Source of the DNA: Alphaproteobacteria bacterium
Lineage (GTDB): Bacteria > Pseudomonadota > Alphaproteobacteria > GCA-2731375
Length of the DNA: 35,681 bases
Assembly (NCBI GenBank): GCA_030747035.1
Contig: JASLLM010000014.1
Span: 1-35,681, forward strand
Direction of reading: 5' to 3'
Of the stretch, positions 6,935 through 35,681 are shown one piece after another (position 1 is the stretch's first letter; every line of letters starts with the position of its first letter). The notes under the pieces are model-generated. The model ran no database searches. It saw only the letters and a program-made list of their open reading frames with translations, and was not told where the DNA came from. The translations under genes and the position numbers were made by a program.

Positions 6935-7264
6935 CCAAATTCCCCCAATCAATTGTCATAGCTAACGACGTGAACTGGCGGGACGCAAGTAAATTGCACG
7001 GCAAGTGGTTCATGAGCCATCAAGCCTTCGGGCCGCTTTTGTATTTTGCCGAAAATTGCGTATCCTTGGATGGCAAAAGCGCGCTTGGGGAGAAAACGGT
7101 ATTGTTCAACAGGTCGATCGTATTGCCGGGGAATGGCAGCGGGCCGGAGCTCAAGGTCATGGCAATTCGGGTCGTGGGTTCCCTCCGCGAACAACACGGC
7201 CTGAACATCTCCAGGCGCCACGAACTTCATGCCGCATAACATGGAACTGGGAAAGGGGAGCGCA
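6935..7264 (+). other. 330-base divergent intergenic region
   Basis: This gap separates the minus-strand polyketide synthase from the plus-strand amidohydrolase operon, so it must hold the promoters of both. It is visibly less GC-rich than the flanking genes. I found no convincing -35/-10 pair, no terminator and no clear inverted repeat. A minus-strand open frame (7230 to 6949) crosses it but lacks a ribosome site and has weak third-position GC bias, so I do not call it a gene. Confidence 0.6.
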
Positions 7265-19812: not shown

Positions 19813-19848
19813 AAAAAGGCGGCGGGCTCGATCTGAGCACCGCCGCCT
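19813..19848 (-). terminator. Rho-independent terminator of the binding-protein transcript
   Basis: Arms AGGCGGCGG (19817-19825) and CCGCCGCCT (19840-19848) pair perfectly over 9 bases. An inner GCTC/GAGC stem closes a 5-base loop with one bulged A. On the minus strand the stem is followed by five T residues (19817-19813), the normal layout of an intrinsic terminator. It lies 23 bases after the end of the binding-protein gene. The opposite side has no T-run, so plus-strand termination for the PaaK-like gene would be weaker. Confidence 0.85.
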
Positions 19849-19871
19849 GAAGTCTAGCCGCTAGGGTTGGA

Positions 19872-21359
19872 TTATTTCCAATACACCGAGCGCATATCGT
19901 TGACGAACATGGGCGAGGATGTCCAAACGCCCATCAGGCCCTTTTTCCGCACCGTGGTCTTGGCCAGTTGGAACAGGAAGCCGTTGACCGCGTCCGCGGC
20001 CAATTTCTTCTGGGCCATTTTCAGATATTTCGAACGCATGGCGGGATCACGGGCGCCATCAGCCTTCGACATGATGTCCTGAAAATCCTTGTTGTCATAT
20101 TGGAAGTAGTAGCCGGGACGGGCATAGATGCCGATATCCATGGGCTCCACGTGACTGACGATGGACAGATCATAGGTCTTTTGTTTGTAGACCTGTTTCA
20201 GCCAGACCGCCCATTCCACGTTCTCGATGGAAATCTTGAAGCCGGCCTTGTTCAACTGCTGCGCCACGATCTGACCGCCGTCGCGGGCATAGCCCGTTGG
20301 CGGTAGTTTCAACGACAGGGCCAAACCATCCCCATAGCCGGCCTCGGCCAGCAGGGCCTTGGATTTCGCCCGGTCCAGGGGATAGGTCCCGGTCAAATCC
20401 AGATAATCGGGATTATGCGGGGCAAAATGGCTGCCGATGGGGATGCCAGCGCCAAACATAGCACCATCGATGATCTCCTTGCGGTCGATGGCGTGGGCGA
20501 TGGCCTGACGCACTTTCAACTTGGACAGCGCCGGATGCTTGTTATTGGTGGACAGAATGGTTTCGCCTTCCGTGGTGCCGAATGAAACCACGAATTTCGG
20601 GTTGTTCTTCAAGGCGTTCAGGCCTTCGGCGGCGCGGGAGAACGGGATCAAATCCAGATCGCCCGACAAGACAGCCGCGATTTGCGCCGATTGGTCGTTG
20701 ATAAAGCGGAACTTGACCCTGTTGAGTTTGACCGAGGCCGCACTCCGGTGCGCCGCATTCTTTTCCATCTGAACACTGTCGCCCTTGACCCAGCGAATGA
20801 ATTTGAAGGGCCCGGTGCCGACAGGCTTGGTCGCGTTGGTCGCCGCGGATGCTTCATCCACGATCACGGCGGTGCTTTCACCCATCCAGAACAGGAACAT
20901 CGGCCGGGCTTTTTTCAGGGTTATCCGCACCGTGTGCGCATCGGGCGTCTCGATCTTGGCCATGTTCACGAAACGCTTTTTGCGCTTGATCTTGCTGTTC
21001 TCGCCGGCATTGGCCTCGAAGGTATATTTCACGTCGGCGGAGGTGAAATCGGAGCCGTCGTGGAATTTGACGCCCTGCTCCAGCTTGAAGGTATAGACCA
21101 AGCCGTCATCGGATACCGTCCAGCTTTTCGCCAGCATGGGGCTGACCGTGGCGTCCTGATTGATGCGGGTCAGGTTCTCGTAAATATTATACAGCGCGAT
21201 CTGGCCGATCGCGGCCGCGGCATTGGCGCGCGGGTCAAGCCCCGGCGGCTCCAACGTCATGGCGATATTGACGGAATCCTTTGCCGCCTGCGCCCCAAAC
21301 GGCAGCGCCGCGACCGCGGCCACGGCAAATGCGTAGCCAATTCTTCGAGCAATAGTCAT
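19872..21359 (-). CDS. ABC transporter substrate-binding protein, family 5 (oligopeptide/dipeptide type)
   Basis: The 495-residue protein begins with a Sec signal (R-R, a hydrophobic core, then A-Q-A at 23-25 as the probable cleavage site). The mature part has the family-5 marks: L-E-P-P-G-L-D-P near the start, K-S-W-T-V-S-D-D-G-L-V-Y-T-F-K-L, the V-K-F-H-D-G motif and F-T-S-A-D-V. These proteins bind peptides, nickel or other small molecules in the periplasm and hand them to a permease. The ATG at 21359 follows GGGGAGG. No permease or ATPase gene is in the window, so the binding protein is separated from its transporter. It probably shares a transcript with the P1 peptidase 56 bases upstream and ends at a terminator. 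Confidence 0.93.
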   Translation of the reverse strand: MTIARRIGYAFAVAAVAALPFGAQAAKDSVNIAMTLEPPGLDPRANAAAAIGQIALYNIYENLTRINQDATVSPMLAKSWTVSDDGLVYTFKLEQGVKFHDGSDFTSADVKYTFEANAGENSKIKRKKRFVNMAKIETPDAHTVRITLKKARPMFLFWMGESTAVIVDEASAATNATKPVGTGPFKFIRWVKGDSVQMEKNAAHRSAASVKLNRVKFRFINDQSAQIAAVLSGDLDLIPFSRAAEGLNALKNNPKFVVSFGTTEGETILSTNNKHPALSKLKVRQAIAHAIDRKEIIDGAMFGAGIPIGSHFAPHNPDYLDLTGTYPLDRAKSKALLAEAGYGDGLALSLKLPPTGYARDGGQIVAQQLNKAGFKISIENVEWAVWLKQVYKQKTYDLSIVSHVEPMDIGIYARPGYYFQYDNKDFQDIMSKADGARDPAMRSKYLKMAQKKLAADAVNGFLFQLAKTTVRKKGLMGVWTSSPMFVNDMRSVYWK

Positions 21360-21415
21360 TCTTATGCCTCCCCGTCGAGAAGTTTTAATCATATGGATCA
21401 ATCCATCCATCCTTT

Positions 21416-22441
21416 TTAACCTGTCTTGGCGCCGTCGGCAAAGGCATCCGGGTAGGATTGCCGATAACTGGGCGCATCCCCCAATGGTTCCGCCGCAAAC
21501 ACCGCCCGCCCGATGGCCCGTGCCAGACAGTCGGCGGCAATGGCACCGATGCGCGCGATCGACATCGCACTAGGTTCAGGCAAGGCCATCCGCGTGGTCG
21601 AAAGGGCAAAAACCGTATCGCCATCGAAGGGCGTATGCAGCGGCCGGATGGCCCGGGCCATGCCGTCGTGCGCCATCATGGCGATGCGTTGGGCCTGGGC
21701 TTTGTCAAGCGTGGCATTGGTGGCGACCACGGCCAGGGTGGTGTTGCCGCCGATCCGGGCCTCCACGGGCAAATCTTCGTCCAGGGCTGCGATGGGACCG
21801 GGCGGTTTTTGCCGGCCCATTTCGCCATTCCGCTCCAAGGCCCAAGCCCACAAAGTGCCGCAACCGGGCATGACGGTGGAACCTACCGGATTCGCCACCG
21901 CAAGGGCGGCGACCTGCAAACCATCGCCCGACACCACCGAGGCGCTGCCCAGGCCGCCCTTCAGGCGGCCGGCGCGGGCGCCCATGCCGGCACCGATATT
22001 ACCCAGCGGAAACGCCTCGCCCGCCGTTTCGCACGCCACGCGGGCCAGATCACCATAACCTGGATAACGGCCCCGATTTTCCGTCCCGCCAAGACCGAGA
22101 TCAAAAATTATGGCACCCGGCACAATGGGCAAACTCCAGGCGCCGAGGGCAAATCCCTGATGCTGCTCGTGCAGCCAGCCAACCACCGCGTCGCCGGCGC
22201 CCAGACCATGTACCGATCCGCCCGACAGACAGATGCCGTCGATCCGCTCAACCAGACAGGACGGGTCCAGCAGGTCAATCTCGCGCGTGCCCGGCCCGCC
22301 GCCGCGCACATCGGCGGCAGCCACCGCTCCATCCTGTGGCAGAACGACGGTCACGCCGGTGCACGCACCCTCGTCGGCGGCGTTGCCGATGGCAATGCCA
22401 TCGACATCGGTAATCAGGTTACGGGGTCCGGGCCTACTCAT
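21416..22441 (-). CDS. P1 (DmpA/S58) family peptidase, N-terminal nucleophile type
   Basis: The 341-residue protein belongs to the DmpA/beta-aminopeptidase family. Typical segments are N-L-I-T-D-V-D-G-I-A-I-G-N at the start, CLSGGSVHGLGAGDAVVGWL, and I-G-G-N-T-T-L-A-V-V-A-T-N-A at 230-243. In DmpA the chain self-cleaves before a serine at this last place; here it is Asn233-Thr234, so Thr would be the nucleophile. The enzymes release N-terminal residues or beta-amino acids from peptides or amides. No signal peptide is seen. The ATG is at 22441. It lies upstream of an oligopeptide-type binding protein, which suggests use of imported peptides or amides, and diverges from the Rrf2 regulator gene. 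Confidence 0.88.
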   Translation of the reverse strand: MSRPGPRNLITDVDGIAIGNAADEGACTGVTVVLPQDGAVAAADVRGGGPGTREIDLLDPSCLVERIDGICLSGGSVHGLGAGDAVVGWLHEQHQGFALGAWSLPIVPGAIIFDLGLGGTENRGRYPGYGDLARVACETAGEAFPLGNIGAGMGARAGRLKGGLGSASVVSGDGLQVAALAVANPVGSTVMPGCGTLWAWALERNGEMGRQKPPGPIAALDEDLPVEARIGGNTTLAVVATNATLDKAQAQRIAMMAHDGMARAIRPLHTPFDGDTVFALSTTRMALPEPSAMSIARIGAIAADCLARAIGRAVFAAEPLGDAPSYRQSYPDAFADGAKTG

Positions 22442-22476
22442 CCCGTCAACAGATCAAAGTTACCCGGGCCGGTCAA

Positions 22477-22504
22477 TTGACAATCCCGGCGGATAGCATA
22501 TATA
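22477..22504 (+). promoter_or_regulatory. Sigma-70-type promoter of the Rrf2-flavoprotein operon
   Basis: A perfect TTGACA (22477-22482) is followed after 16 bases by TATATA (22499-22504); a second TATATA register at 22501 gives 18 bases. The -35 overlaps a perfect 10-base palindrome, GTCAATTGAC (22472-22481). Expected transcription would begin at about 22510-22512, inside the inverted repeat at 22506-22530. Confidence 0.7.
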
Positions 22505-22505
22505 T

Positions 22506-22530
22506 AACTACGACTAATAACGTCGGAGTT
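22506..22530 (+). promoter_or_regulatory. Probable Rrf2 autoregulatory operator
   Basis: Arms AACTACGAC (22506-22514) and GTCGGAGTT (22522-22530) are inverted repeats matching at 8 of 9 positions around a 7-base AT-rich centre. The size (25 bases) and centre resemble sites bound by Rrf2-family dimers. It lies just downstream of the -10 and includes the GGAG ribosome site of the regulator gene, so binding would block both transcription start and, in the transcript, could mask translation. Binding by the adjacent gene product is inferred. Confidence 0.65.
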
Positions 22531-22534
22531 TAGA

Positions 22535-23065
22535 ATGAGCCAGTATGGCAGCGCCGTCGAATACGCCTTGCATTGCCTTTTGTACCTGGTCGGGTCCGAT
22601 CGGGACACGGCCCGCAGCACGCGCGACATCGCTGAATTCCAGGAATTGTCCACGGACTACGTGGCGAAGCTGTTCACGCGCCTGCAAAAAGCGGGTCTGG
22701 TCACCGCGATTGAAGGCGCGCGGGGCGGCTTTCATTTGGCCCGGGCAGCCGATGACATCTCGGTACTGGACGTCGTCGATGCGGTCGAGGGCCATAAGCC
22801 ATTGTTCGAATGCCGTGAAGTGCGGGCCAAATGCGCCCTGTTCGATGACGACCCGCCGGCCTGGAGCGGCCGGGGCGTCTGTGGCATTCACGCGGTCATG
22901 CTGAAGGCGGAGGCAGCCATGCGCGAAAGCCTGGGGCAAAGCACCTTGGCGCAACTGGCCGGCCATGTTGGCAAGGTGGTGCCGGAGGCGCACCAGAGGG
23001 CGGCCCGAACCTGGTTCGAAGAGCGTCAGGCAACCCGTGGCCGGCGGGCGCGAAAAGGGAGTTAG
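22535..23065 (+). CDS. Rrf2 family transcriptional regulator
   Basis: The 176-residue protein has the Rrf2 winged-helix N-terminus: Y-G-S-A-V-E-Y-A-L-H, then S-T-R-D-I-A with an HTH, and the wing G-A-R-G-G-F-H-L-A-R (61-70). Three cysteines follow at 93, 100 and 116. Rrf2 sensors such as NsrR and IscR bind a [2Fe-2S] or [4Fe-4S] cluster with three cysteines in this region, but the usual spacing is tighter, so cluster binding is plausible and unproven. The ATG at 22535 uses the GGAG inside the operator. It is 3 bases from the NDH-2-like gene, so it probably controls that gene and itself in answer to redox, iron or nitric oxide. Confidence 0.92.
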   Translation: MSQYGSAVEYALHCLLYLVGSDRDTARSTRDIAEFQELSTDYVAKLFTRLQKAGLVTAIEGARGGFHLARAADDISVLDVVDAVEGHKPLFECREVRAKCALFDDDPPAWSGRGVCGIHAVMLKAEAAMRESLGQSTLAQLAGHVGKVVPEAHQRAARTWFEERQATRGRRARKGS

Positions 23066-23068
23066 GTT

Positions 23069-24253
23069 ATGCCGAATTTACTGATCATTGGTGGTGGCTA
23101 TGCCGGCCTATGGGCGGCGATGGCAGCGGCGCGAAGGGCGGATGAGAATGGCAGTGAACTGCACATTCGCCTGTTGTCGAAGGACGCCTATCTGACCCAT
23201 CGCCCGCGCCTGTACGAGCGCAATCCACAAGACATGCGCACGCCCCTGGGCCCGGTTCTGGAACCCATCGGCGTCGACCTGGCGTTGGGCGAGGTCACGG
23301 CCATTGAGCCGGCGGCGAGAACGGCCCGCGCCACCGATGCCGAAGGCAACAGCACCGAATATATCTATGACGGCCTTGTCCTGGCGGCGGGCAGTATTCT
23401 CAGGCCGCCGCCGCTGGACATCGTCGATGGCCGGACCTGGAGCGTGGATGACTACCAATCCGCCGTCGCCCTTGACCAGCACCTGCAAGCCCGCATGGCG
23501 GAGCCCGCTGAAGATGCGGAGACAGTCGTGATCATTGGCGCCGGCTTCACCGGTATTGAACTGGCGGCGGAGATGCGAACCCGTCTGGCCGCGCACGGCG
23601 GCACGGCGCGCGCCGAAAAGGCGCGGGTAATCCTGCTGGATGCGGCCGCCACGGTCAGTGAGGATCTGGGCCCCGGCCCCCGCCCGCATATTTTGGAGGC
23701 CCTGCAGGCCGCCAGGGTCGAGGTGCGCCTGAATACGACGGTGCGCCGCATCAAAGGCGATCAAGTCATGCTGGATGACGGCGGCCGGATCACCTGCCAA
23801 ACGGTGATTGTCACCACCGGCGCCCAGGCCAATCCCCTGGCCGCCGGTTTCGGCCTGGCGACCGATCCTGCGGGACGGCTTTTCGTGGATGAGTTCCTGC
23901 GCGTCAAGGGACTGGCGAACATCCATGCCGCCGGCGACATCGCCCACGCCATGACCGACGACAGCCATGCCTCCCTGATGTCCTGTCAGCATGCCATGCC
24001 CATGGGCAAGGCGGCCGGCTACAACGCCGCCTCCGACCTGTTGGACCTGCCGCCCCTGCCCTATCAACAGACACGCTATGTCACCTGTTTGGATTTGGGG
24101 CCATGGGGGGCGGTGTTTTCCAATGGTTGGGAGCGCCAGGTAGAAATGATCAAGGACGAAGCCAAGGCGCGTAAACAGTTCGTCATGACCCAGGTGATCT
24201 ACCCACCCACAAAGGACCGCGCCGCCATATTGGAAGCCGGCGCCCTGGGCTAA
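23069..24253 (+). CDS. NAD(P)/FAD-dependent oxidoreductase, NDH-2-like
   Basis: The 394-residue flavoprotein has two Rossmann sites: I-I-G-G-G-Y-A-G-L at residues 5-13 for FAD and V-I-I-G-A-G-F-T-G-I-E-L-A near residue 155 for NAD(P)H. The motif I-H-A-A-G-D-I-A-H near residue 288 closes the FAD pocket. This is the layout of type II NADH dehydrogenases and related disulfide-reductase-fold enzymes; no redox Cys-x4-Cys pair is present. It should oxidise NADH and reduce quinone or another acceptor at the membrane surface. The ATG at 23069 follows GGGAG. It is coupled to the Rrf2 gene and its stop overlaps the convergent SAM-hydrolase stop within CTAA (24250-24253). Confidence 0.87.
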   Translation: MPNLLIIGGGYAGLWAAMAAARRADENGSELHIRLLSKDAYLTHRPRLYERNPQDMRTPLGPVLEPIGVDLALGEVTAIEPAARTARATDAEGNSTEYIYDGLVLAAGSILRPPPLDIVDGRTWSVDDYQSAVALDQHLQARMAEPAEDAETVVIIGAGFTGIELAAEMRTRLAAHGGTARAEKARVILLDAAATVSEDLGPGPRPHILEALQAARVEVRLNTTVRRIKGDQVMLDDGGRITCQTVIVTTGAQANPLAAGFGLATDPAGRLFVDEFLRVKGLANIHAAGDIAHAMTDDSHASLMSCQHAMPMGKAAGYNAASDLLDLPPLPYQQTRYVTCLDLGPWGAVFSNGWERQVEMIKDEAKARKQFVMTQVIYPPTKDRAAILEAGALG

Positions 24254-24999
24254 AGCAAGGCCACGGGGCTGCCCTCGGCCAGGGCCAATTGCCGCCCGGC
24301 ACTGCCCTGATTGACGGCGATTTCCACCAGGCCGTTGGCATTTTCGTACCAGAAAGCCCCGCCAAGTGGCGCTTCGCTGAATGTCCGGGCGCCCGCAAGG
24401 ACGGCCCCTCCAGCCTGGATTTTCACATCATCGCCCAGGCAGGCGGCACGCAGGCCGGTAATGGCATTGCCGAAATGATCCAGATAAATCACCTGGGCCA
24501 GATCGTCCGGCCAATCGGGCTGCCGCCAGGCGCTATCGGCAATCGGCGCCAGGGCGATGGCATCGCCGCGCGCGAGGGCCGCTGCCGCAGGGGCAAACAG
24601 ATCGCGGCCATGAAACGATGGCGACAGGCGCTCCGGGCGCCAGGTAATCATCCGTGCCTCGAAGGTGCGAGACCGCCGCGCGATGATTTCGAACAGGCCA
24701 TTTCCCGGCCCAACATATACATGGCCGTCGGCATGCAGCACCATCGCCGGCCGGTCGCCGCCGACACCGGGATCAACCACACAGACGAAGACCGTGCCGG
24801 CCGGAAATTCCAGCGCGTGGGCGGCCAGCAGATAGCCCGCCGCCCTGGCGTCAAACGTTGGTGCGTCAGCGAACAGGTCGACGACAGCCGCGCCTGGCGC
24901 CTCGCGATGCAGAACGGCGCGCATCTGGCCCATGTAGGGGCTGCCAATGCCGAAATCCGTGAACAATACGATCATCGGCCCGATGGACGTGTTGGTCAT
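24250..24999 (-). CDS. S-adenosyl-L-methionine hydrolase (adenosine-forming), DUF62 family
   Basis: The 249-residue protein matches the SAM hydroxide adenosyltransferase family. It starts with I-V-L-F-T-D-F-G (10-17), then V-V-D-P-G-V-G-G-D-R (Asp76, Arg83) and S-F-H-G-R-D-L-F-A-P (His130). Asp, Arg and His form the known triad that activates water to split SAM into adenosine and methionine. The halogenase (SalL/FlA) insert is not evident. The ATG at 24999 lies in the ATGA shared with the kinase stop, so it is translated with the kinase. Why SAM hydrolysis is coupled to a sensor kinase is unclear. It is the last gene of the minus group. Confidence 0.9.
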   Translation of the reverse strand: MTNTSIGPMIVLFTDFGIGSPYMGQMRAVLHREAPGAAVVDLFADAPTFDARAAGYLLAAHALEFPAGTVFVCVVDPGVGGDRPAMVLHADGHVYVGPGNGLFEIIARRSRTFEARMITWRPERLSPSFHGRDLFAPAAAALARGDAIALAPIADSAWRQPDWPDDLAQVIYLDHFGNAITGLRAACLGDDVKIQAGGAVLAGARTFSEAPLGGAFWYENANGLVEIAVNQGSAGRQLALAEGSPVALL

Positions 25000-26408
25000 T
25001 GGGGACCGCCGGGCAGATCAATACGAAAAACCGTGCCGTGGCTGTCGCTGCGCAACAGCATCAGTTCACCGCCATGCGCCTCCACCAGCTCCTTGGCTAT
25101 GGCCAGGCCCAGCCCCGTGCCCCCGGTCCGGGCCGAACCGGTGAAGGGCTCGAACAAATGCTCACGCGCCTTTTCGGGCAAACCCGGTCCATTGTCGCTG
25201 AATTCGATAATGACTCCGGCGCCGCCCCAATTCGCCGTCACGGCGATCTCGCCGCCCTGGCTCATGGCCTGAATGGCATTGCGCGCAAGATTCATGAAGA
25301 CACGGAAGATCTGCTCCCGGTCCGCCTCCAGGATCAGATTGCCACCAACCTCGTTGCGCCAGACAATCCGGCCATCGCTGGGCAGGCCGGCGAAGGCGGC
25401 GACATCCTCCACCAGATCCCGCAAGGCAAAGGATGTGGGATTGGGCGCCGCTTCATCCGCCCGGCCGAAGCTGAGGGTTTGGCTGCACAGCTCTATGGCC
25501 CGGTCAATGGATTGCATCAGACGCGGCGCGACCCGGCGGACGGTCGGATCCTCCACCTCGCCCAAACCGTCGGAGACCAGTTGCGCCGTGGCCAGGATAT
25601 TGCGCAGATCATGGTTGATCTTGCTGACCGCCACGCCCAGTGCCGCCAGATGGGCCTGTTGCGTCAGCGAGGCGCGCAGGCCGTCCTGCATATGGCGCAA
25701 TTCCCGCTGCGCCGTCCCAATCTCGTCACCCCGGCTACTGTCGGCGATCATGGATTGGGCATTCTCCGGCGCCTTGCGGAAGGCCACCATGGAGGCGGTC
25801 AGGCGGCGCATGGGCAGAACCATCAGCAAACGCAGCGAGAGGAAAACCAGACCGGCGGTCAGCAGAGAAATCACCAGGGACAGTTTCATGATGTTGGTGG
25901 AATAGTCGATCATCGCAGCGTAGAGCTGTCTTTCGTCTACGATCACTTCCAGGCTGCCCTCGGACTGATCAGGAAAACCGCCGACAATGCGCAATGTGCG
26001 GTCCCCTTCGGCCAGGGTGGCAAAGGCATCGGCGATCAAGGGCAGCGCGGAGGCACCGCGCAGATCATAGCTGGCATCAACCTGCGGCGGCATGTCCTCC
26101 ATCAACACCATGATCCGCGCTTCCCGCCGCTTCAGGACGATGCCCCGCACCATGGCGTTCGACAGTAATTCCAGCTCCAACGGCTTGCTCAGGACGTTGT
26201 CCGGGGTCGCCTTCAGGGCCAGAGAGGCCAAATGAGCATCGGCGATGCGGTTCTCCAGGAAAGTCAGACGAAAACGGGCGATGGACGGCACATAGATCAA
26301 TACCTCGCTGATCATGACGAAAAACATCGTCAGGACCAGCAGGCGGGCCGACAGGCCGCGCAGCCAGCGCGGCAGAGATTTCCGTTGTGATTTTTCCCGC
26401 TTCTGCAT
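24996..26408 (-). CDS. Membrane sensor histidine kinase
   Basis: The 470-residue protein has a membrane helix at about 21-43, a periplasmic sensor loop to about 170, a second helix at about 172-200, and a HAMP-like linker. The kinase core includes the H-box S-K-I-N-H-D-L-R-N with His266, the N-box F-M-N-L-A-R-N-A-I-Q (Asn377), the G1 box F-S-D-N-G-P-G-L-P at 403-411, and the G2 box T-G-L-G-L-A-I-A-K near residue 431. All catalytic parts are present. No response-regulator gene is adjacent, so it is an orphan kinase. It starts at ATG 26408, 59 bases after the MFS gene, and overlaps the SAM hydrolase by ATGA. Confidence 0.93.
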   Translation of the reverse strand: MQKREKSQRKSLPRWLRGLSARLLVLTMFFVMISEVLIYVPSIARFRLTFLENRIADAHLASLALKATPDNVLSKPLELELLSNAMVRGIVLKRREARIMVLMEDMPPQVDASYDLRGASALPLIADAFATLAEGDRTLRIVGGFPDQSEGSLEVIVDERQLYAAMIDYSTNIMKLSLVISLLTAGLVFLSLRLLMVLPMRRLTASMVAFRKAPENAQSMIADSSRGDEIGTAQRELRHMQDGLRASLTQQAHLAALGVAVSKINHDLRNILATAQLVSDGLGEVEDPTVRRVAPRLMQSIDRAIELCSQTLSFGRADEAAPNPTSFALRDLVEDVAAFAGLPSDGRIVWRNEVGGNLILEADREQIFRVFMNLARNAIQAMSQGGEIAVTANWGGAGVIIEFSDNGPGLPEKAREHLFEPFTGSARTGGTGLGLAIAKELVEAHGGELMLLRSDSHGTVFRIDLPGGPQ

Positions 26409-26467
26409 CAGGTAGAGAAGTTAAACTATTTCCCGCCGACCGCCACCCACTGCTTCTCCACCGGTCC

Positions 26468-27739
26468 TCAATCTCGGTGCGCGAGCCGCCCCTTGGTTGG
26501 CCAAACAAACCAGACGAAGGCCAGGACCTGGGTCGCCGTGGTCGCCAGAAAAGCCCAAAGATAGGCGACTTTCGGGTAGCTGCCATCCGCCCCCACGGGC
26601 CATAGTTCGATCACCCAGCCAATGCCCCACTGATAGCCAAAGGCCATGATGAAGACCAAGACGTTGGCGGCCGTGTTGGCGCGGGCCGCCTGGCTGACGG
26701 GAAAATGATGCGCCAGGGCGGCGAAAACCAACGACGTCAGAACGATGACAAGGCCCAGAAAACTCCACAGGATATAACTTGAAGGGACAACATCGGTAAC
26801 CAGAAGCAACATGGGGATAATCGAGAAAAACGCGGCATAACCGCATACGCCCGCCATGCTATACCCCATGCGCTGCAATCCGGCGGCGAACAAGCCGCTG
26901 CCCATGACCCCGACAGTCATGCCCACCGCCATGATGGTCAGATGTGTCGCCGTATCGGCCTGGCTAAACTCATCCACTTCCAGCAGCCATGGCCCGGCCC
27001 ACAGGCCCTGAATGGCCATGTATGCCGCCGAGCAGGTGAACATCAAAGGCGTCAGGCGCCAAAAGTACGGATCGCTGAAAATTCGGCCGATTTCTCTGAT
27101 CTGCTCTCCAAGGCTGCCCGTGGCGGCACTGTCAGGCTTTTCCGGCGCCACCAGCAGGATCAATGCCGCGACCACCAGATTGACAGCGGCCAGCAGCATG
27201 AACATCTGCCGCCAATCCATGATTTGCATGGCGAAATCAACCGGTCCCGTTGCCGCCAGGGCGCCCACGCCGCCGGCGGCAAAATACCAGCCGTTGACCA
27301 TGGCGACACGGTTCAGGGGAAACCACATGACGATGGCCTTCAGCGCCGCCATCAGACCGCCCGAAACGCCGAAACCAATCATCGCCCGGGCCAGGACCAA
27401 TGTCGTGACGCTGTCTCCCTTGGCGAACAGCAGGGCGCCAAGGGCAGCGATACAATACAACGTCCCCTGCACCCGGCGCGGCCCATAGCGGTCCAGCAAC
27501 AAACCGAGGGGGATCTGGCATGCCGCGAAGGTCAGGAAGTATGCCGCCGACATCAGACCCAGATCCGCCGGGCCCAGGCCAATATCCTGCCGCAGGTAGG
27601 GCGCCACCACCGCATTGACCGTGCGGTAGAAGTAGGAGAAGAAATAGCCACAGGCAAACGGCATAAAGACCAGTATCATGGCGCTCGCCATGCTGACCGT
27701 GGGCGTTGGTTTTTCTTTTTCTGTCTCGATGGCCGTCAC
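26468..27739 (-). CDS. MFS transporter
   Basis: The 423-residue protein has about 12 hydrophobic segments in two halves. The family motif between helices 2 and 3 is visible as G-L-L-L-D-R-Y-G-P-R-R near residue 70, and a second G-x-x-x-D/R region lies in the C half. Members of this group carry organic anions or sugars with protons. The best start is GTG at 27739 (V-T-A-I-E-T-E-K), though its ribosome site is weak; ATG at 27691 is an alternative that shortens the cytoplasmic lead by 16 residues. It is divergent from the psuG gene and may be first in a transcript with the kinase and SAM hydrolase. The substrate is unknown. Confidence 0.88.
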   Translation of the reverse strand: MTAIETEKEKPTPTVSMASAMILVFMPFACGYFFSYFYRTVNAVVAPYLRQDIGLGPADLGLMSAAYFLTFAACQIPLGLLLDRYGPRRVQGTLYCIAALGALLFAKGDSVTTLVLARAMIGFGVSGGLMAALKAIVMWFPLNRVAMVNGWYFAAGGVGALAATGPVDFAMQIMDWRQMFMLLAAVNLVVAALILLVAPEKPDSAATGSLGEQIREIGRIFSDPYFWRLTPLMFTCSAAYMAIQGLWAGPWLLEVDEFSQADTATHLTIMAVGMTVGVMGSGLFAAGLQRMGYSMAGVCGYAAFFSIIPMLLLVTDVVPSSYILWSFLGLVIVLTSLVFAALAHHFPVSQAARANTAANVLVFIMAFGYQWGIGWVIELWPVGADGSYPKVAYLWAFLATTATQVLAFVWFVWPTKGRLAHRD

Positions 27740-27792
27740 GGTACCATGACTAGTGCATGAGGACGGCCGGCGCAATTGCGGGACCAATTCAA

Positions 27793-28734
27793 ATGAATGA
27801 AAAACTTCTGCTGACGGATGAGGTCGCCGCCGCCCTGGCTGACGGCCAGGCGGTGGCCGCGCTGGAAAGCAGTATCGTGGCCCAAGGGCTGCCTGAGCCC
27901 GATAACCTGGAAGTCGGCCAAGCCATGCAGGATGCGGTGCGCCGACAGGGCGCGATACCGGCCATGACGGCGGTACTTGATGGCCGCTTGCGGGTCGGCC
28001 TGACGGCGGAAAATATGGCCCGTTTGGCGGCCGCACCCGATGGCCAAAAGTGTGGTGCCCGCGATCTGGGTCCCGCCCTGGCCCTCAGCCTGCCGGGCGC
28101 CACCACGGTTTCGGCCACGGTTACGATCGCGGCGGAGGCGGGCATTTCGGTCTTCGGCACGGGGGGCATCGGCGGCGTCCACCGCGTGACGGCGGCAGCC
28201 AAGGGTGGGGCCCGGGCGGACATCTCCGCCGACCTTCTGGCGATGTCCCGCGTGCCCGTGGCCGTGGTCAGCAGCGGTGCGAAATCCCTGTTGGATCTGC
28301 CCACAACGCTGGAAGCCCTGGAAGCCCTGGGCGTGCCCGTACTTGGCTATTGCAGCGATGACTTTCCTGCCTTCTATAGCGGCGAAAGCGGGTTGTCGGT
28401 GAGTTACCGTATTGACGATCTGACAGTGCTGGCCCAGGCCTTGCGGGCCCATTGGTCCCTGCCCGGTTCGGGCGGCATTCTGGTCTGCAACCCCCCGCCC
28501 GCGGACATTGCCATGGGGCGGGACGAGGTCGAGGCTTTGGTCCAGGACGCCACGGCCGCCGCCAATGCGGCGGAAATCTCGGGCGGCGCGCTGACACCGT
28601 TTATCCTCTCGCACATGCGCCGGGCATCCAACAATCAGACGCTGCGGGTCAATACCGCCCTGGCCGTTGCCAACGCCGCCCTGGCGGGCCGCCTGGCGGT
28701 TAAGCTGGCGGCATTGTCTGTATCCGAAAGGTGA
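27793..28734 (+). CDS. psuG: Pseudouridine-5'-phosphate glycosidase
   Basis: The 313-residue enzyme cleaves the C-C glycosidic bond of pseudouridine 5'-phosphate to uracil and ribose 5-phosphate. Family marks include A-L-E-S-S-I-V-A-Q-G-L-P with Glu25, G-Q-K-C-G-A-R-D-L with Lys86, G-T-G-G-I-G-G-V-H-R-V, A-D-I-S-A-D-L, the Schiff-base Lys164 in S-G-A-K-S-L-L-D-L-P, and P-F-I-L-S-H near the C-terminus. These agree with E. coli YeiN (Glu31, Lys93, Lys166, numbering from memory). The ATG at 27793 is chosen over an upstream GTG. The kinase partner psuK is not in the window. The glutathione-transferase gene starts 5 bases after its stop. Confidence 0.93.
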   Translation: MNEKLLLTDEVAAALADGQAVAALESSIVAQGLPEPDNLEVGQAMQDAVRRQGAIPAMTAVLDGRLRVGLTAENMARLAAAPDGQKCGARDLGPALALSLPGATTVSATVTIAAEAGISVFGTGGIGGVHRVTAAAKGGARADISADLLAMSRVPVAVVSSGAKSLLDLPTTLEALEALGVPVLGYCSDDFPAFYSGESGLSVSYRIDDLTVLAQALRAHWSLPGSGGILVCNPPPADIAMGRDEVEALVQDATAAANAAEISGGALTPFILSHMRRASNNQTLRVNTALAVANAALAGRLAVKLAALSVSER

Positions 28735-28739
28735 ATGCG

Positions 28740-29369
28740 ATGACGATCACCCTGCACGGCTACACATACAGCGTCTACAGCCGCATACCGCGCATGGTCT
28801 GCCACGAAAAAGGCATCGCGTTTGATTGGCGGGAAGTCGATCCTTTCGATGATGCAACACCGGAAAGCTATGGCGAATTGCATCCCTTTCGCCGGGTGCC
28901 GGTTCTTCAGCATGACGGCTTCACCCTGTACGAAACCGGCGCCATCAGCCGCTATCTGGACGAGGCGTTTCCCGGTCCGTCCCTACAGCCGGCTGACATT
29001 GGGCAACGGGCCCGCATGGCGCAGATCATTTCCATTGTCGATGCCTATGTCTATTGGCCCCTGGTGCGCCAGGTATTTTCGCACCGGGTTTTCAGGCCGA
29101 AATTTGGCGATTCCTGGGATGAGGACACAATCGCGGCTGGACTGGAGACGTCAAAAGTTGTTCTGGCCGCCCTCGAAAGCCTGGTGTCGGAGCACCATCA
29201 TATTATCTCGCCCGAAGTCTCCCTGGCGGATTTTCACCTTGCCACCATGATCGACTATTTCGCCATGGCCGATGAAGGCGCCACCATGCTGGCGCAATAT
29301 GAAAAATCGTCGGCCTGGTGGGCCAATATGCGGCTACGGGACAGCGTCACCGCGACCGCGCCGCTTTAG
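28740..29369 (+). CDS. Glutathione S-transferase family protein
   Basis: The 209-residue protein has an N-terminal thioredoxin fold with a Y-T-Y-S-V-Y-S-R segment near residue 8, F-R-R-V-P-V-L (cis-Pro) near residue 53 and the glutathione-contact motif L-Y-E-T-G-A-I-S-R-Y-L. An all-helical C-terminal domain with L-A-D-F-H-L-A follows. This is a normal-length cytosolic GST. The ATG at 28740 is preceded by AAAGGTGA; a GTG at 28731 is possible but has no site. It is probably cotranscribed with psuG. Its stop codon TAG lies within the left arm of a 19-base inverted repeat. The substrate is unknown. Confidence 0.9.
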   Translation: MTITLHGYTYSVYSRIPRMVCHEKGIAFDWREVDPFDDATPESYGELHPFRRVPVLQHDGFTLYETGAISRYLDEAFPGPSLQPADIGQRARMAQIISIVDAYVYWPLVRQVFSHRVFRPKFGDSWDEDTIAAGLETSKVVLAALESLVSEHHHIISPEVSLADFHLATMIDYFAMADEGATMLAQYEKSSAWWANMRLRDSVTATAPL

Positions 29370-29405
29370 AGCAACCTGCGTTCACTTGAACGCAGGTTGC
29401 TCTAA
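29366..29405. repeat. Perfect 19-base inverted repeat (palindromic element)
   Basis: The left arm 29366-29384 and right arm 29387-29405 are exact reverse complements separated by two bases. The arm begins TTAGAGCAACCTGC. The GST stop codon TAG is inside the left arm. No T-run follows on either strand, so a classic terminator is not proven, though such a stem would stop or stabilise transcripts. The shape resembles alphaproteobacterial dispersed palindromic elements that start or end in TTAGAGC; whether this copy belongs to such a family needs a genome-wide comparison. Confidence 0.9.
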
Positions 29406-29415
29406 CTCTTAGAAT

Positions 29416-29467
29416 TAGATCAAATTATCAGCCCAAAAATGATTCCATTTTTGGGCTGTTTGATCTA
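29416..29467. terminator. Nested hairpin between convergent genes, probable bidirectional terminator
   Basis: An inner stem pairs CAGCCCAAAAATG (29429-29441) with CATTTTTGGGCTG (29446-29458) around a 4-base loop ATTC. An outer stem pairs AGATCAAA (29417-29424) with TTTGATCT (29459-29466), extended by one further base pair, with a 4-base bulge TTAT on the left. The spermidine-synthase stop codon (29465-29467 on the minus strand) lies in the outer arm. The T-rich and A-rich arms and the position between converging genes favour termination in both directions. Confidence 0.7.
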
Positions 29468-30313
29468 GGGCATCAAGGCCTGTAAATAGGGCGGCATGGC
29501 GAAGGCGCCCAGATGGATATCCGCATTGTAGTAACGTAAATCCAGGGCCAGTCGTTGCTGCCGCGCCTGCAACAGTTCCAGGGGAACCGCGCCCGCATCG
29601 GTGCCATCCGAGGCGCAGCCAAAGGCCATGGCGCCGCCCACATACATGGGCACGGCGGCAAAACAAAAGCGTGGATACCGGAACAGCTGCTTGAAGGCTT
29701 TCGCCGACGAGGCCAGTTCTTCGGCCTGAATAAAGGGCACGCCGTTCTGGGTCACCAGAATGCCTTTCGGCCGCAGACAGCGGCGGCAATTGGCGTAAAA
29801 CGCGGGACTGAACAGGACTTCGCCAGGTCCGATCGGGTCGGTGGAATCGATGATGATCACGTCGAACCGCCGATCGGTCCCGGCCAGGAATTTGGCGCCA
29901 TCCTCAATCCGCAATTCCGTGCGCGGATCGGCGAAGGCCTCGCCGCAGATCATGCCCAGGTGTTGCTGCGCCAGATCTACCACCTGCCGGTCCAGTTCGA
30001 TCATGGTCACCCGCTCCACCGGATGCTTCAGCACCTCTTCCAGGCAACCGCCGTCACCGCCGCCGATGATCAGGACCTCGGCCGGATTGTCCAGGCTGAA
30101 CAAAGGCACATGGGCCAGCATCTCGTGATAGATGAATTCATCCCTGGCGGTGGTCTGCACCACATCGTCCAGAACCAGAACCCGTCCCAGAAATTCGTTG
30201 TCGAAAATCAGCACCGATTGGAATTCGGTTCGACCGCGATGGATCAGACGGTCCATGCGGATGCCCGCCTGCAACTCCGGATGCAGGGTTTCGCGAAACC
30301 ATTCTTCCGCCAT
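29465..30313 (-). CDS. speE: Spermidine synthase (polyamine aminopropyltransferase)
   Basis: The 282-residue enzyme moves an aminopropyl group from decarboxylated SAM to putrescine. Motifs are an N-terminal beta domain with L-D-D-V-V-Q-T-T (48-55) and Y-H-E-M-L-A-H, the nucleotide loop I-G-G-G-D-G-G (83-89), the acidic E-L-D after the next strand, and I-D-S-T-D-P-I-G-P (155-163) with catalytic Asp156 and Asp159. Spacing is as in E. coli SpeE. The start ATG at 30313 has a GGGGTGAG site. It is cytosolic and lacks the N-terminal membrane domain of longer SpeE forms. SAM decarboxylase (speD) is not in the window. Its upstream DUF2336 gene is 112 bases away, with room for its own promoter. Confidence 0.95.
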   Translation of the reverse strand: MAEEWFRETLHPELQAGIRMDRLIHRGRTEFQSVLIFDNEFLGRVLVLDDVVQTTARDEFIYHEMLAHVPLFSLDNPAEVLIIGGGDGGCLEEVLKHPVERVTMIELDRQVVDLAQQHLGMICGEAFADPRTELRIEDGAKFLAGTDRRFDVIIIDSTDPIGPGEVLFSPAFYANCRRCLRPKGILVTQNGVPFIQAEELASSAKAFKQLFRYPRFCFAAVPMYVGGAMAFGCASDGTDAGAVPLELLQARQQRLALDLRYYNADIHLGAFAMPPYLQALMP

Positions 30314-30425
30314 TGTTGACTCACCCCAAATTTCTGGAACTTCGCCCAATGCAAAGACGCCAACATAGGCAAATCATCGATCGGAGCAAGCGGAACGCAA
30401 AAGTAGGTTGGTGGCGGCGGCAGGC

Positions 30426-31559
30426 TTATCCGGCGGTCTCGGCGTCCTCCTGGGACTTCTGCCGAATGGCCCAAAAACGCATGGCGCGCTTGGCGGTTTC
30501 GACGGGAATTTCCTTGTACAATTCCAGCAACTCGGCCACTTCCTCCGGCCGGCGCAGTTGTTTTTCCACTTCCCCGGAACCGGAATCAGCGGCGCCGTCC
30601 AAAAGCAGCACGATGGTGGAAAACGTCGAAAGATCAAAGCCCTTGGCCCGGCACGCCACGGCTACGGCCTCGTGACCGGGGGTAAATACGATACGCCGCG
30701 CGGTCTTTTGATCAACATCGGTCAAATAGCCCAGCCCGGCGATAAATTCGGGCACTTGGCCACGGCGCGAATATTGCACCAGGGCATCCTGGTTCAACTG
30801 GCCCAGGCGCATGCGCCGGCGCACCGCCCGTTCGACGCGGCCCAGCTTGTCCTCTTCCTCCTCCGCCTCGCGCACCATGCCCTGCTCGGCTTCCGCCAGC
30901 ATGCGGTCGACGGTCTCTTCATCGACTTCCGCTTCGGTCAGAATATGTTTCTTCAGGGCGGAACTGACCCACCAGAACATGTTGTGCATCAGATCGGGGG
31001 GCAGATCCTTGCGGTTCAACAGCGGCTCGTGCAATTGCTCGCTGGTCTCGGAACGGTCAACAATGGCTTCCATGGTGCCACGGGAGATTTCCGCGCCGGC
31101 ATTGTTGATCAGCGACAGCACCACCTCGTCATCGCCCCTGGCGACCAGCGCGTCGGAAACACCTTCGCTGACACTGCCGCGAAGCGAAACCGAAAGCTGA
31201 TGCTCTTTGCCCTGGTTGTTGATGACATCGATCAGATCCTGATCGCTCAAAACGCCGCTGCGTTCGAGCAGGGGACGCGCCACCTGGATTTCGTCGGACG
31301 CCAACTGCCGGATAAGATCAGCCGGCGCATCGTCCAGACCCGCCAGCCGGTGGCTCAAACGGGCCCGTACCTCGCGCTCAACCTCGGTGACAACCTTACC
31401 CAGAATATCGGCGGCGATGACCTGTTCCTGATCGTTTAGGCCCGGCCCGTCGTCCATGAACAAGTCGGTCACGCCTTCCAAGAGCTCGCGCCGCTTGTCG
31501 GAGGAAGCCTCGTGGGCCACCTCGATCAGATTTTCAAGTTTGCTCGTATGTGCCGACAT
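30426..31559 (-). CDS. DUF2336 domain protein, helical, unknown function
   Basis: The 377-residue protein is nearly all helix and strongly acidic, with HEAT-like repeats (segments such as L-A-S-D-E-I-Q-V-A-R-P-L-L-E at about 86-100 and repeats of this shape). It matches DUF2336, an alphaproteobacterial family without an assigned role; some members sit near cell-cycle or flagellar genes. There is a run of Glu near residue 236 followed by basic residues. No signal peptide or membrane segment is seen. The start is ATG at 31559. A 231-base gap upstream, with no gene I can support, should hold its promoter; it contains a single TTAACC half-site, which is not enough to claim CtrA control. Confidence 0.82.
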   Translation of the reverse strand: MSAHTSKLENLIEVAHEASSDKRRELLEGVTDLFMDDGPGLNDQEQVIAADILGKVVTEVEREVRARLSHRLAGLDDAPADLIRQLASDEIQVARPLLERSGVLSDQDLIDVINNQGKEHQLSVSLRGSVSEGVSDALVARGDDEVVLSLINNAGAEISRGTMEAIVDRSETSEQLHEPLLNRKDLPPDLMHNMFWWVSSALKKHILTEAEVDEETVDRMLAEAEQGMVREAEEEEDKLGRVERAVRRRMRLGQLNQDALVQYSRRGQVPEFIAGLGYLTDVDQKTARRIVFTPGHEAVAVACRAKGFDLSTFSTIVLLLDGAADSGSGEVEKQLRRPEEVAELLELYKEIPVETAKRAMRFWAIRQKSQEDAETAG

Positions 31560-31790
31560 ACCTATATCAGGGCCGCCAAGTTATTTTACGCACGGATCTA
31601 GAGATTGGGTCGAATTGGTTAATAAACAGTGATTCTCGTCACCCCGACGAAGACAATTTTCACATTAGTTCACGGCATCAAAAGCATTCACAATACGTCC
31701 GCATTTCCCTCAAAGCGACGGCGGCCGGCTCTGCCTGGAAAGCCAGACCGGCACCGGTATCATCAGGAAAAGCCTTGTGATTACAGCAGC

Positions 31791-32570
31791 TTATGCATTT
31801 TTTATGGTCAAGCCGCCGTCGACGGGCAGCACCGCGCCGTTGATGTAACCGGCGGCCGGCAGGACCAGGCTCAAGGTTCCGTGGGCAACTTCCTCCGGCT
31901 CGGCGTAGCGGGCCAGGGGGACGCGGCGCTTGGCGAAAATCTGTTTGTGTTCTTCCTTGATATTCTTGGTCATGCCGGTGCGGATGGCACCGGGACAAAT
32001 GCAATTAACTGTAACGCCCTGTCGCCCCAGTTCAACCGCAAGCGAGCGGGTCAGACCGATCACGCCATGTTTGGCGGCGGTATAGGGGCTGGTCTCGGGC
32101 GTCGCGCCCAGACCTTCGGTCGAGGCGATATTGACGATGCGCCCGGCTCCGCCGGCGCGCAAATGCGGCAGGGCAGCGCGGATCGTCCGGGTATGGGCCC
32201 GCAGAAGAATATCAAGATGGCGGTCCCAGATCTCCTCGTAATCGTCGGCGTCGATCAAGGTGTGCTGGGAAATACCGGCATTATTGATCAGGATGTCCAG
32301 GCCGCCGAAACGGTCAGCGACCTCGGCAACAACGGTCTTGATACGGTCGGGATCGGCCAGGTCCAAGGTCCAGCCCTCGGCGTTGAGGCCGGCTTCCTTG
32401 ATCTCGGCAACCACCTCGGCGACCCCATCGCCATTGATGTCGGTCACCGCCACATGGGCGCCTTCGTCGGCAAACAAGTGCGCAGTGGCCCGGCCCATGC
32501 CGCTGGCAGCGCCGGTAACAAGGGCGACCTTGCCCTCGATCGAACGGCTGAGTTTTGACAATCTGGTCAT
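31791..32570 (-). CDS. Short-chain dehydrogenase/reductase (SDR)
   Basis: The 259-residue enzyme has T-G-A-A-S-G-M-G (19-26), Asp44 after the second strand (NAD preference), N-N-A-G (96-99), catalytic Ser150, and Tyr163 and Lys167 in Y-T-A-A-K. The C-terminal P-V-D-G-G-L is normal. It should oxidise an alcohol or reduce a ketone with NAD(H); the substrate is unknown. The ATG at 32570 follows a strong AGGAGGAAA site. It diverges from the selenoprotein gene across 238 bases, so both may answer to one signal. It is not closely similar to the SDR at 4247, and the two share only family motifs. Confidence 0.9.
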   Translation of the reverse strand: MTRLSKLSRSIEGKVALVTGAASGMGRATAHLFADEGAHVAVTDINGDGVAEVVAEIKEAGLNAEGWTLDLADPDRIKTVVAEVADRFGGLDILINNAGISQHTLIDADDYEEIWDRHLDILLRAHTRTIRAALPHLRAGGAGRIVNIASTEGLGATPETSPYTAAKHGVIGLTRSLAVELGRQGVTVNCICPGAIRTGMTKNIKEEHKQIFAKRRVPLARYAEPEEVAHGTLSLVLPAAGYINGAVLPVDGGLTIKNA

Positions 32571-32808
32571 CCAATTTCCTCCTCGACTGATTTTTCACAG
32601 GTAACCATGAAATCGGCGGCCGGCCTACTCAAAACGGAAGAATTCTCCGGCCAGGCGGCTGGACAAAGGGGGCCAGTGTGCGGTCGAGCCATGGGCCATA
32701 TCGAGGCTCTGGGGAAACCATTGTTTCGGGACGAGACTGGCGACATACTGAACGGCCCGGCGCCGCGCCGCATGAAAAGAGTTAACACATTCACGCCAGG
32801 AGCATGAG

Positions 32809-34440
32809 ATGACCGACCGCCTTACCGTTCACGACCCCCGAGGTTACCCACCGAAGGTGACCGGCAAGCGCCTGGCGCCGCGGCTGGAAAGCCTGGACGG
32901 CAAGGTGGTCTATCTGGTCGATTGTTTGTTCGATAATTCGGCGGCCTTCATGGACCAGATGCAGGACTGGTTCTCGCACAACCTGCCGGCGGTCGAGACC
33001 CGGATCATCAGACCGCGCGAAAGCTGGGTCGACGATCCGGACATGCGTACGGCGATCAGTAAATCCGGTGACGCGGCGATCCTTGGGGTGGGCTTGTGAA
33101 GCAGCTGTAGCCCGACGGTCGTCGGGCTGGCCTCATCCCTCGAAGAAGGCGGCGTTCCCACCATCGCCCTGCATACCTCCACCTTTGCCGAGTTGTGCCG
33201 CTCCACGGCGCTGGCCAACGGCACGCCGACCCAGCGCCAGGCCTTCGTGCCGCAGCCGGTGGTTGGCCGGACGCCGGCGCAATTGCGCGGCTATATCGAA
33301 GGCCTGGATCCAATCTCCAACCGCCCCGTCATGCAGGAGATAATCGAAGGCCTGGCCAACCCCCTGAACGACAACGACCTGAAGGACATGAGCTTCGAGC
33401 GCTCCACGCCACGCCTGCTCCCGCCCAGCGGCGAGGCCGATCTGGAGCAACTTTTCATGGACAATCGCTGGACCGATTTCCAGCCGATCGTGCTGCCGAT
33501 CGAGGCGCGGGTGGCGGCGATGCTGGCAGGCACCAGCCATGGGCCGGATGAAACGGTGGGACAATTGCGCCCGACCTTTTTCCGTGAAGCCTGGGAGTCC
33601 ACTGTCGAGAAAGTCGCCGTCAACGCGGTCATGGCCGGCGCCCGGCCGGAATATTTCCCCGTCATCCTGGCGCTAGCGGCCAGCGGTATCACGGCGCGCC
33701 AGAGCAGCACGAATTCTTTTGGCATGATCTCCGTCGTCAACGGCCCGATCCGCCACGAGATCGGCATGAATTGCGGCATCGGTGCCATGGGCCCATACAA
33801 TCACGCCAACGCGGCCATAGGGCGGGCCTACGGGCTATTGTCGCAGAACCTGCAGGGCGGCTCGGTCCCGGGCGATACCTATATGGGCTCGCTCGGCAAC
33901 TGGTATGCCCAGGGCGCCACCTTCGCCGAGAACGAGGAAGCCAGTCCCTGGACGCCATTGCATGTGCAAAAGGGCTTCAAGCCGGAGGACAGCACCGTCA
34001 GTATCTTCGTCGGGGGCTGGTATACCCAGGCCGGATACGGCCCGCGCGAGACCTGGCGGGAGAAACTGCGCCGGACCTTCCGGGCCTGCGAGCCTTATCA
34101 GCCGCCGGTCTTCGTGATGGATCCGTTGTCCGCGCGCGGCTTCGTGGCGGAAGGTTTCGACAGCAAGGAAAAGCTGATCGAATGGTGTGCCGAGAACGCG
34201 GAAATGCCGGCGCGGGAATATTGGGACGATCTATGGGTGCAGACCCTGTTGCGGCCGCACGCGGTGGCCGGCGTCGAGCCCTATGCTTCCAGGCTGAAGG
34301 CGGCGCCGGACGAGTTGGTCAAGCTGTGGCAGCCGGAACAGATCAATATCGTCGTCACGGGGGGTGAAACGCAGCCGGCCTGGAAGATGTTCGGCGGCGC
34401 CTGGCGCAATTCCACCTTTTCCGTCGATAGCTGGCGCTGA
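32809..34440 (+). CDS. UGSC-family selenoprotein with in-frame UGA (Sec97)
   Basis: The frame is open from ATG 32809 (AGGAG at 32798-32802) to TGA 34438-34440, apart from one TGA at 33097-33099. Read as selenocysteine this gives 543 residues with the motif Sec97-Ser-Ser-Cys100 after A-I-L-G-V-G-L. This context, with L-D-G-K-V-V-Y-L-V-D upstream and E-G-G-V-P-T-I-A-L-H downstream, matches the UGSC (seleno)protein family, where Sec or Cys begins a redox U-x-x-C. Family patterns continue past the TGA in the same frame, so a stop or pseudogene is unlikely. The C-terminal part (T-V-E-K-V-A-V-N-A-V-M-A-G and G-P-I-R-H-E-I-G-M-N) is a second conserved domain of unknown role. No signal peptide. The host must have selA, selB, selC and selD elsewhere. 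The reaction is unknown; reductive thiol chemistry is inferred. Confidence 0.88.
33097..33128 (+). promoter_or_regulatory. Bacterial SECIS hairpin following the Sec UGA
   Basis: After the TGA (33097-33099), 17 bases lead to the tetraloop GGTC (33117-33120). The loop is closed by a perfect 8-base stem, AGCCCGAC (33109-33116) with GTCGGGCT (33121-33128). Bacterial SECIS elements need a short stem-loop about 16-37 bases after the UGA with G in the first two loop positions; both rules are met. The E. coli fdhF element has the same GGUC loop 18 bases after its UGA (from memory). The hairpin lies inside the coding sequence, as is normal for bacteria. Confidence 0.85.
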
Positions 34441-34446
34441 CCCGGA

Positions 34447-35613
34447 TCAGACGGCGACGCCGGCCTTGAGGCCCTCCAGCACGGCCTCCTCCACCGTGCG
34501 CGCCGCCAGGCAGTCGCCAACCGTGAACACATCGCCGCTGAAATCAGCCAGCCGCTGGCCAAGTTCGTCGGCCGGTTCGTGGCCCAGCGCCAGCACCACC
34601 GTGTCGACCTGGTCACAGACGATCGCCTCGCCCGAGGACAAATGCCGCAGATAGGCGCTGTCGGCATCGACGCCATGCAGGCCGGCATAGGGGATCACTT
34701 CAACACCGAGTGAGCGCAGCAGGCCGTTGGCATGATCGCGCATATAGTTCTGCATGCGCTGGCCCGCGACCGGACCGTTCAGGCAAAGCCGCACGCGGCA
34801 TCCGTCGCGCGCCAGCTTTTCCGCCAAACCAGTACCGATCCAGTCGCACCGCCAATCGGCGATCAGCACGCTGTTGCCACATTGGCCTCGCCCCGGATCA
34901 CCTGCCAGGCATCGATGACATGGCCTTCCGCCATCCCTTCTATGGCCGGCACATACGGCCGCGCGCCGGTCGCCAGAATGATAGCCTCGGGCGCTTGCTC
35001 CGCCACCAACTCGGGCGTCACTTCGGTCCGTTTGATCACTTCGACCCCGGCGAGTTCGATCTCGCGTTCGAAATTGGTGACCAACCCGCCGAACTCGGCC
35101 CGCCCCGGCAACAACTGCGCCAACAGAACCTGCCCGCCCAGGCGCGCGGATTTCTCATACAGCGTGACCTGGTGACCGCGCCGGGACGCGACCATCGCCG
35201 CCTTCATGCCGCCCGGTCCACCGCCGACAACCATCACGCGGCGCGGATGTTCCGCCGGTGTGATGTCACCGTAGATAAGCTCCCGTCCGGTCTCGGGATG
35301 CTGAATGCACGAAATCGAATAGCCGGCTTGCATGCGGCCGATACAGGCCTGATTGCAGGCGATGCAGGCGCGGATATCGTCGCCGTGGCCCGTGCGCGCC
35401 TTGTTCGCCATTTCGGGGTCGGCGATCATCGCCCGGGTCATGCCGCACATATCGGCCTGGCCCGAGGCGAGAATTTGCTCGGCGGTCTGGGGTTGATTGA
35501 TGCGGCCGGCCACGAATACGGGTTTCGAAACCCTGGCCTTGACCGCCGCGGCGAAAGGCGCGACGTAGCCTGTCTCCACCAGCATCGGCGGCACGATGTG
35601 ATAGGCGCTGGAT
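34447..35613 (-). pseudogene. Broken NADH:flavin oxidoreductase (2,4-dienoyl-CoA reductase/TMADH type), 5' lost and frameshifted
   Basis: Two minus-strand pieces make the C-terminal part of one Fe-S flavoenzyme. The upstream piece starts mid-barrel (Y-H-I-V-P-P-M), has a four-cysteine cluster C-I-A-C-N-Q-A-C followed by C after 11 residues, and the FAD motif V-V-G-G-G-P-G-G-M. It ends early near 34863. The downstream piece (34447-34869) continues in another frame with V-L-I-A-D-W. Adding one G at about 34876 joins them smoothly as V-G-N-S-V-L-I-A-D. So either a base was lost or this is a sequencing error. The first 230-250 residues are missing at the point where a transposase end begins. The intact enzyme would use FMN, FAD and [4Fe-4S] to reduce enoyl or amine substrates. 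Confidence 0.85.
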
Positions 35614-35681
35614 TCACATCTCAAGTGCAATTCTGAGGTTTTCGATGAAAGCTTCGGCGGGCGTTTGATATCCGAGGCATT
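35614..35681 (-). mobile_element. C-terminal end of an IS transposase (IS30- or IS3-like), runs off right edge
   Basis: On the minus strand an open frame enters from the right edge and ends at TGA 35614-35616. The last 21 residues include C-L-G-Y-Q-T-P-A-E-A-F and N-L-R. The L-G-Y-x-T-P-x-E motif is typical of the tail of DDE integrase-core transposases of IS30 and IS3/IS481 families; the preceding Cys favours IS30. The terminal inverted repeat should lie within a few tens of bases of the stop, close to the break in the flavin oxidoreductase. Exact boundaries and any target duplication cannot be set without the other end. Confidence 0.75.

Follow-up and report, generated by a model that had tools for sequence, protein, structure and literature searches.

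An intact two-domain UGSC gene with an in-frame TGA that is very likely read as selenocysteine

Does the in-frame TGA at 33097-33099 end a short gene, or is it read as selenocysteine (Sec) within a longer one? The question arises in a window of 35,681 nucleotides, which is a contig (C55) of a 4.3-Mb alphaproteobacterial draft genome (G000) assembled in 351 contigs. Mechanical ORF calling yields two pieces in the same frame, 32809-33099 (96 residues) and 33193-34440 (415 residues), and thus splits the region at the TGA, as the initial annotation had remarked. The frame from the ATG at 32809 to the TGA stop at 34438-34440 contains this single in-frame TGA, at codon 97, and reading it as Sec gives a protein of 543 residues. 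The initial annotation had further claimed one intact gene with conserved family sequence on either side of the TGA. Both points were borne out, by a Pfam UGSC match (PF24696; residues 7-160) that runs across the TGA and by 28 relatives that align over nearly the whole length. That 32809-34440 is a real and intact gene is well supported, and its features are collected in Table 1.

Table 1. Features of the selenoprotein gene, in window coordinates
Feature	Position	Strand	Basis
Complete selenoprotein gene, UGSC/C-domain fusion, Sec very likely at codon 97	32809..34440	+	Frame, Pfam, 28 relatives, dN/dS
Putative ribosome-binding site: CCAGGAG, rich in purines, shortly 5' of the ATG	32797..32803	+	Inferred from sequence inspection
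UGSC domain at the N terminus (residues 7-160); three layers, Rossmann-like in the model	32827..33288	+	PF24696, predicted structure
In-frame TGA, very likely read as selenocysteine 97	33097..33099	+	TGA in 12/28 and Cys codon in 16/28 relatives
Cys100 of the U-S-S-C motif, invariant	33106..33108	+	Aligned relatives
bSECIS-like hairpin, 8-bp stem, GGUC apical loop	33109..33128 (loop 33117-33120)	+	Folding, comparison with Cys forms
C-terminal domain, residues 201-543	33409..34437	+	Pfam: no match; PDB: no clear fold

The relatives came from a scan in which each species was represented by one genome; it returned 28 full-length sequences at 41-85% identity. When these were aligned, position 97 was occupied solely by Sec or Cys, and in all 29 sequences (the window gene included) this residue is accompanied by Cys100, in a UxxC arrangement. 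The Pfam match scored 81.7 bits against a cut-off of 25 (E = 9.3e-23), and NCBIfam NF041046, named "UGSC family (seleno)protein," scored 57.2 bits (E = 1.9e-15), below its curated cut-off of 125. Judged by these scores, the window protein is a relative of NF041046, not an equivalog. The initial annotation had also described a U-S-S-C variant of the family motif. The motif itself stands and is shared with three relatives (L027, L028, and L047), but its status as a variant is weaker, because Ser is the rule in the fused clade: the majority of the other relatives carry [U/C]-S-T-C, with U-D-G-C in the Firmicutes forms, which makes Ser in place of Gly after the Sec/Cys a property of the clade.

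Selection was assessed against the closest relative, L027 (84% identical). Upstream of the TGA dN/dS was 0.06, downstream it was 0.10, and the 31 codons that separate the TGA from the next potential start gave 0.21. Low values on both sides and across these 31 codons argue against a pseudogene, as well as against separate translation of the halves, which the initial annotation had named as a result that would overturn its reading. A nonsense mutation, or a miscalled base in a Cys codon, might be suspected at the TGA from the fragmented draft assembly and from an adjoining gene (34447-35681) that looks frameshifted, but we regard this as scarcely credible, since the TGA lies at the identical codon in 12 relatives from other genomes, where neither chance nor sequencing error can explain it, and since the frame has no further stop, dN/dS is low throughout, and the genome encodes Sec machinery.

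The region could also hold two genes, one encoding 96 residues up to the TGA and the other 415 residues from the TTG at 33193, as this is the result of standard ORF calling, and separate C-domain genes do exist in related loci. Where other organisms have two genes, however, the boundary lies between the UGSC and C domains and not within the UGSC domain, as it would here. Moreover, the codons from the TGA to the TTG are conserved family sequence that includes Cys100, inspection by eye found no convincing ribosome-binding site 5' of 33193, and the Cys-encoding relatives are single ORFs across the same span. Split-gene and dead-gene readings are both unlikely, and a gene pair is very improbable.

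A hairpin noted by the initial annotation 3' of the TGA proved to be real. It reads AGCCCGAC-GGTC-GTCGGGCT (33109-33128), with an apical loop that begins 18 nt past the TGA. By itself, the window hairpin is moderately unusual (z = -1.7 against dinucleotide shuffles) and not decisive, as 42 of 1000 synonymous recodings fold equally well; it becomes convincing through comparison with the Cys forms. The strongest downstream hairpin averages -13.5 kcal/mol in 13 TGA forms, versus -5.9 kcal/mol in 16 Cys forms (Mann-Whitney p = 9e-6, uncorrected for relatedness). In the TGA forms, the apical loop starts at +16 to +22, mostly at +18, and is typically GGUC. In one relative (L042), two silent changes at third codon positions have turned the stem pair at columns 18/27 from G-C into C-G, and covariation across 8 sequences, with a score that was reached in 31 of 500 shuffles, is weak and merely suggestive. 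An Rfam search returned nothing at the hairpin.

The host genome encodes the complete SelA/SelB/SelC/SelD set. The tRNA-Sec gene selC has the anticodon tca (UCA), as confirmed by ARAGORN; selB and selA lie side by side on contig C295; and selD (L073, on C33) has an in-frame TGA of its own, within the motif GGGUGCK. SelD is thus itself likely to be a selenoprotein. The genome has a further five UGSC genes that contain an in-frame TGA (L074-L078, on contigs C323, C331, C44, C341, and C80), all with the canonical UGSC motif; some are fused to the C domain, and others stand apart from it. Matches to the protein were also present in all 14 family relatives searched. Taken together, (i) the Sec machinery, (ii) the Sec/Cys exchange at position 97, (iii) the TGA-linked hairpin, and (iv) the purifying selection support what the initial annotation had inferred, and Sec decoding of codon 97 is, on this sequence evidence, very likely. 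The three checks on which the initial annotation could have fallen, of the Sec machinery, of the residue in homologs at position 97, and of separate translation, all spoke for it. SelA, SelB, SelC, and SelD would decode the TGA, aided by the hairpin directly downstream.

We considered misbinning but dismissed it at the level of the whole contig. That the window belongs to this genome is shown by its DUF2336 gene, for which 8 of 10 congeners have full-length orthologs (73-89% identity), and by about 12 kb (19813-32618) that is syntenic with another genome, G005. The synteny stops at 32618/32619, and the selenoprotein gene, which lies beyond this breakpoint, is absent from that place in G005 together with the part downstream. 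Among the congeners there is no close ortholog, the best matches being about 38-44% identical over partial length, and a sample of 239 further genomes of the class gave no match at 1e-100. Horizontal gain of the gene is likely, though not proven.

The protein comprises two domains, as had been claimed: the UGSC domain (residues 7-160) and a long C-terminal domain (residues 201-543). A full-length structure model was confident (pLDDT 87, pTM 0.86). Its N-terminal domain is Rossmann-like, with a best match to an MCR activation complex component (Z = 11.1 over 138 residues, rmsd 4.8) and many matches at Z 8-9 to receiver-like and B12-binding-like folds. The Sec domain is therefore predicted to differ from the Trx-like fold proposed in 2008. 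A profile-based sequence search of the PDB gave nothing significant. In hhalign comparisons, the UGSC domain aligned with GrdB/PrdB-like selenoproteins with a probability of 91% (P = 1e-6), whereas unrelated controls reached 19% and 0.7%. This profile-level similarity to GrdB/PrdB (PF07355) surrounds the Sec motif and places Sec on Sec, but it covers only about 78 columns, and hmmscan of the window protein against Pfam gave no PF07355 match. Moreover, no GrdA, GrdC/D, or pyruvoyl proprotein occurs among the annotated neighbours of the window gene and its relatives, and the partner domain of the UGSC fusion has, as far as tested, no relation to known Grd/Prd subunits. Glycine reductase receives its electrons from the thioredoxin system.

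Neither Pfam nor NCBIfam names a family for the C domain. Structural comparison with Foldseek and VIA-align gave a fumarate hydratase as the best match (E = 0.026), which is unconvincing and carries no weight for function; a match to barbiturase/cyanuric-acid hydrolase (E about 0.08) was likewise unconvincing and was not used, and Z stayed below 6. Additional or tandem copies of the domain are found in L047, L049, L050, and L051, and in Halalkalicoccus jeotgali a separate gene adjoins the UGSC gene at the place of the C domain.

The neighbourhoods of the relatives point to a reductant. Twelve of the 28 loci have a thioredoxin-reductase-like (TrxR-like) gene in the same orientation no more than 200 nt away (L027, L030, L032, L034, L035, L037, L039, L040, L042, L044, L046, and L048), several loci ending at contig ends, and the closest relative of the window gene is among the twelve. 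These proteins keep a CASC/CATC disulphide and match solved thioredoxin reductases (best E = 3e-69 for the copy in L034); to judge by these matches, they are genuine thioredoxin reductases. The cluster in Neorhizobium galegae, L039, and L040 comprises the gene, a malonyl-CoA synthase-type ligase, a TrxR, and a GntR regulator, and in N. galegae and L040 it also includes malonyl-CoA decarboxylase; SDR and solute-binding proteins are further metabolic neighbours. The window gene has no TrxR neighbour and would therefore need a reductant encoded at another place. It sits between an SDR gene and a flavin oxidoreductase gene, both on the opposite strand. The latter (34447-35681, minus strand; Oxidored_FMN plus Pyr_redox_2, a flavin/NADH oxidoreductase) runs off the window end, and its coding sequence is divided between two overlapping frames at about 34863-34869, in what looks like a frameshift or assembly error.

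We propose, with a probability of roughly 0.7, that the gene encodes a working selenoprotein, a two-domain Sec enzyme whose substrate is reduced or attacked and which is reset by a TrxR-type flavoprotein; the catalytic cycle, reductant, and substrate class are inferred. In the model, Sec97 and Cys100 would form a redox or nucleophilic pair at the start of the helix after the central β strand of the Rossmann-like UGSC domain, and the C-terminal domain probably supplies the substrate pocket. The selenol of Sec97 would most likely attack or reduce a small organic substrate of carboxylic type, and Sec97 would then form a selenenyl-sulphide with Cys100, to be reset by the thioredoxin-reductase-type flavoprotein. 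The window protein is accordingly a likely TrxR-fed Sec reductase. A broader proposal is more tentative and less likely than not, namely that the UGSC/C-domain fusion and a dedicated TrxR constitute an uncharacterised reductase system in Proteobacteria and others, an analogue of glycine/proline reductase with interchangeable Sec and Cys forms, that reductively cleaves a small carboxylic substrate, in some genomes one that feeds malonate/malonyl-CoA catabolism.

The UxxC motif and the TrxR neighbours would also suit a Trx- or Prx-like protein, in which the Sec pair performs general thiol-disulphide exchange or peroxide reduction and there is no substrate-specific reductase; the 2008 survey of the Global Ocean Sampling selenoproteome (PMC2398784) likewise judges UGSC "likely" Trx-like. 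Against this, the N domain of the model has a Rossmann-like α/β fold, and both the large, conserved second domain and the metabolic neighbours (malonyl-CoA synthase and decarboxylase, SDR, and solute-binding proteins) point to a specific metabolite. We consider such a general role rather unlikely, at perhaps one chance in five.

UGSC selenoproteins, as well as a fusion of one to a domain termed "Unknown_1," are described in the same survey (PMC2398784), so the window gene is not new in kind: the family and a fusion of this sort were already known, and the gene adds a member. It resembles the family (PF24696/NF041046) in its Pfam match across the Sec position, in having Sec/Cys first and an invariant Cys three residues on, and in a Sec-rich distribution; it differs in U-S-S-C (against U-G-S-C), in falling below the NCBIfam cut-off, and in its fused C-terminal domain of about 340 residues. 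Like the UGSC/Unknown_1 fusion, it joins a UGSC selenoprotein and a conserved, function-unassigned domain in one chain. The survey (PMC2398784) stresses a conserved Cys in the fused domains, however, whereas Cys322 in the C domain of the window protein is not conserved, Unknown_1 being compared here by its description.

UGSC ranks with the most abundant selenoprotein families in the environment. Recent reviews include it without a function, and our literature search for a characterised one found none. The present analysis adds the association with TrxR, the malonyl-CoA-type surroundings of some relatives, the connection to GrdB/PrdB, and a fold assignment for the Sec domain. The TrxR and malonyl-CoA/GntR neighbourhood and the GrdB/PrdB profile link make UGSC a directly testable reductase.

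Automated annotation cuts UGSC selenoprotein genes at the TGA. On the Acidovorax sp. T1 plasmid p2-T1 (L092, NZ_CP021650.1), an IncP conjugative plasmid, a UGSC gene at 7001-8197 near IS1071 has an in-frame TGA within GDUGSC and is annotated merely as a short hypothetical protein, 7001-7291, that ends at the TGA. On the Neorhizobium galegae plasmid pNgVX (L091), the Cys-form fused gene at 6962-8630 has been entered as a pair of overlapping hypothetical proteins, and the listed annotation omits the TrxR-like gene next to it (8621-9545). In the host genome of the window, a GrdB/PrdB-like gene (L082, on C292 around nt 1864; VPVUPNC) also contains an in-frame TGA. Along with L079, L081, L083, L085, L086, L088, and L089, this is one of several small GrdB/PrdB-like proteins that stop at a TGA beyond which conserved coding sequence continues, with the motif VPVUPNCTRAVG or AAUPVCHQ; judged from their sequences, these are likely further selenoproteins that standard calling truncates.
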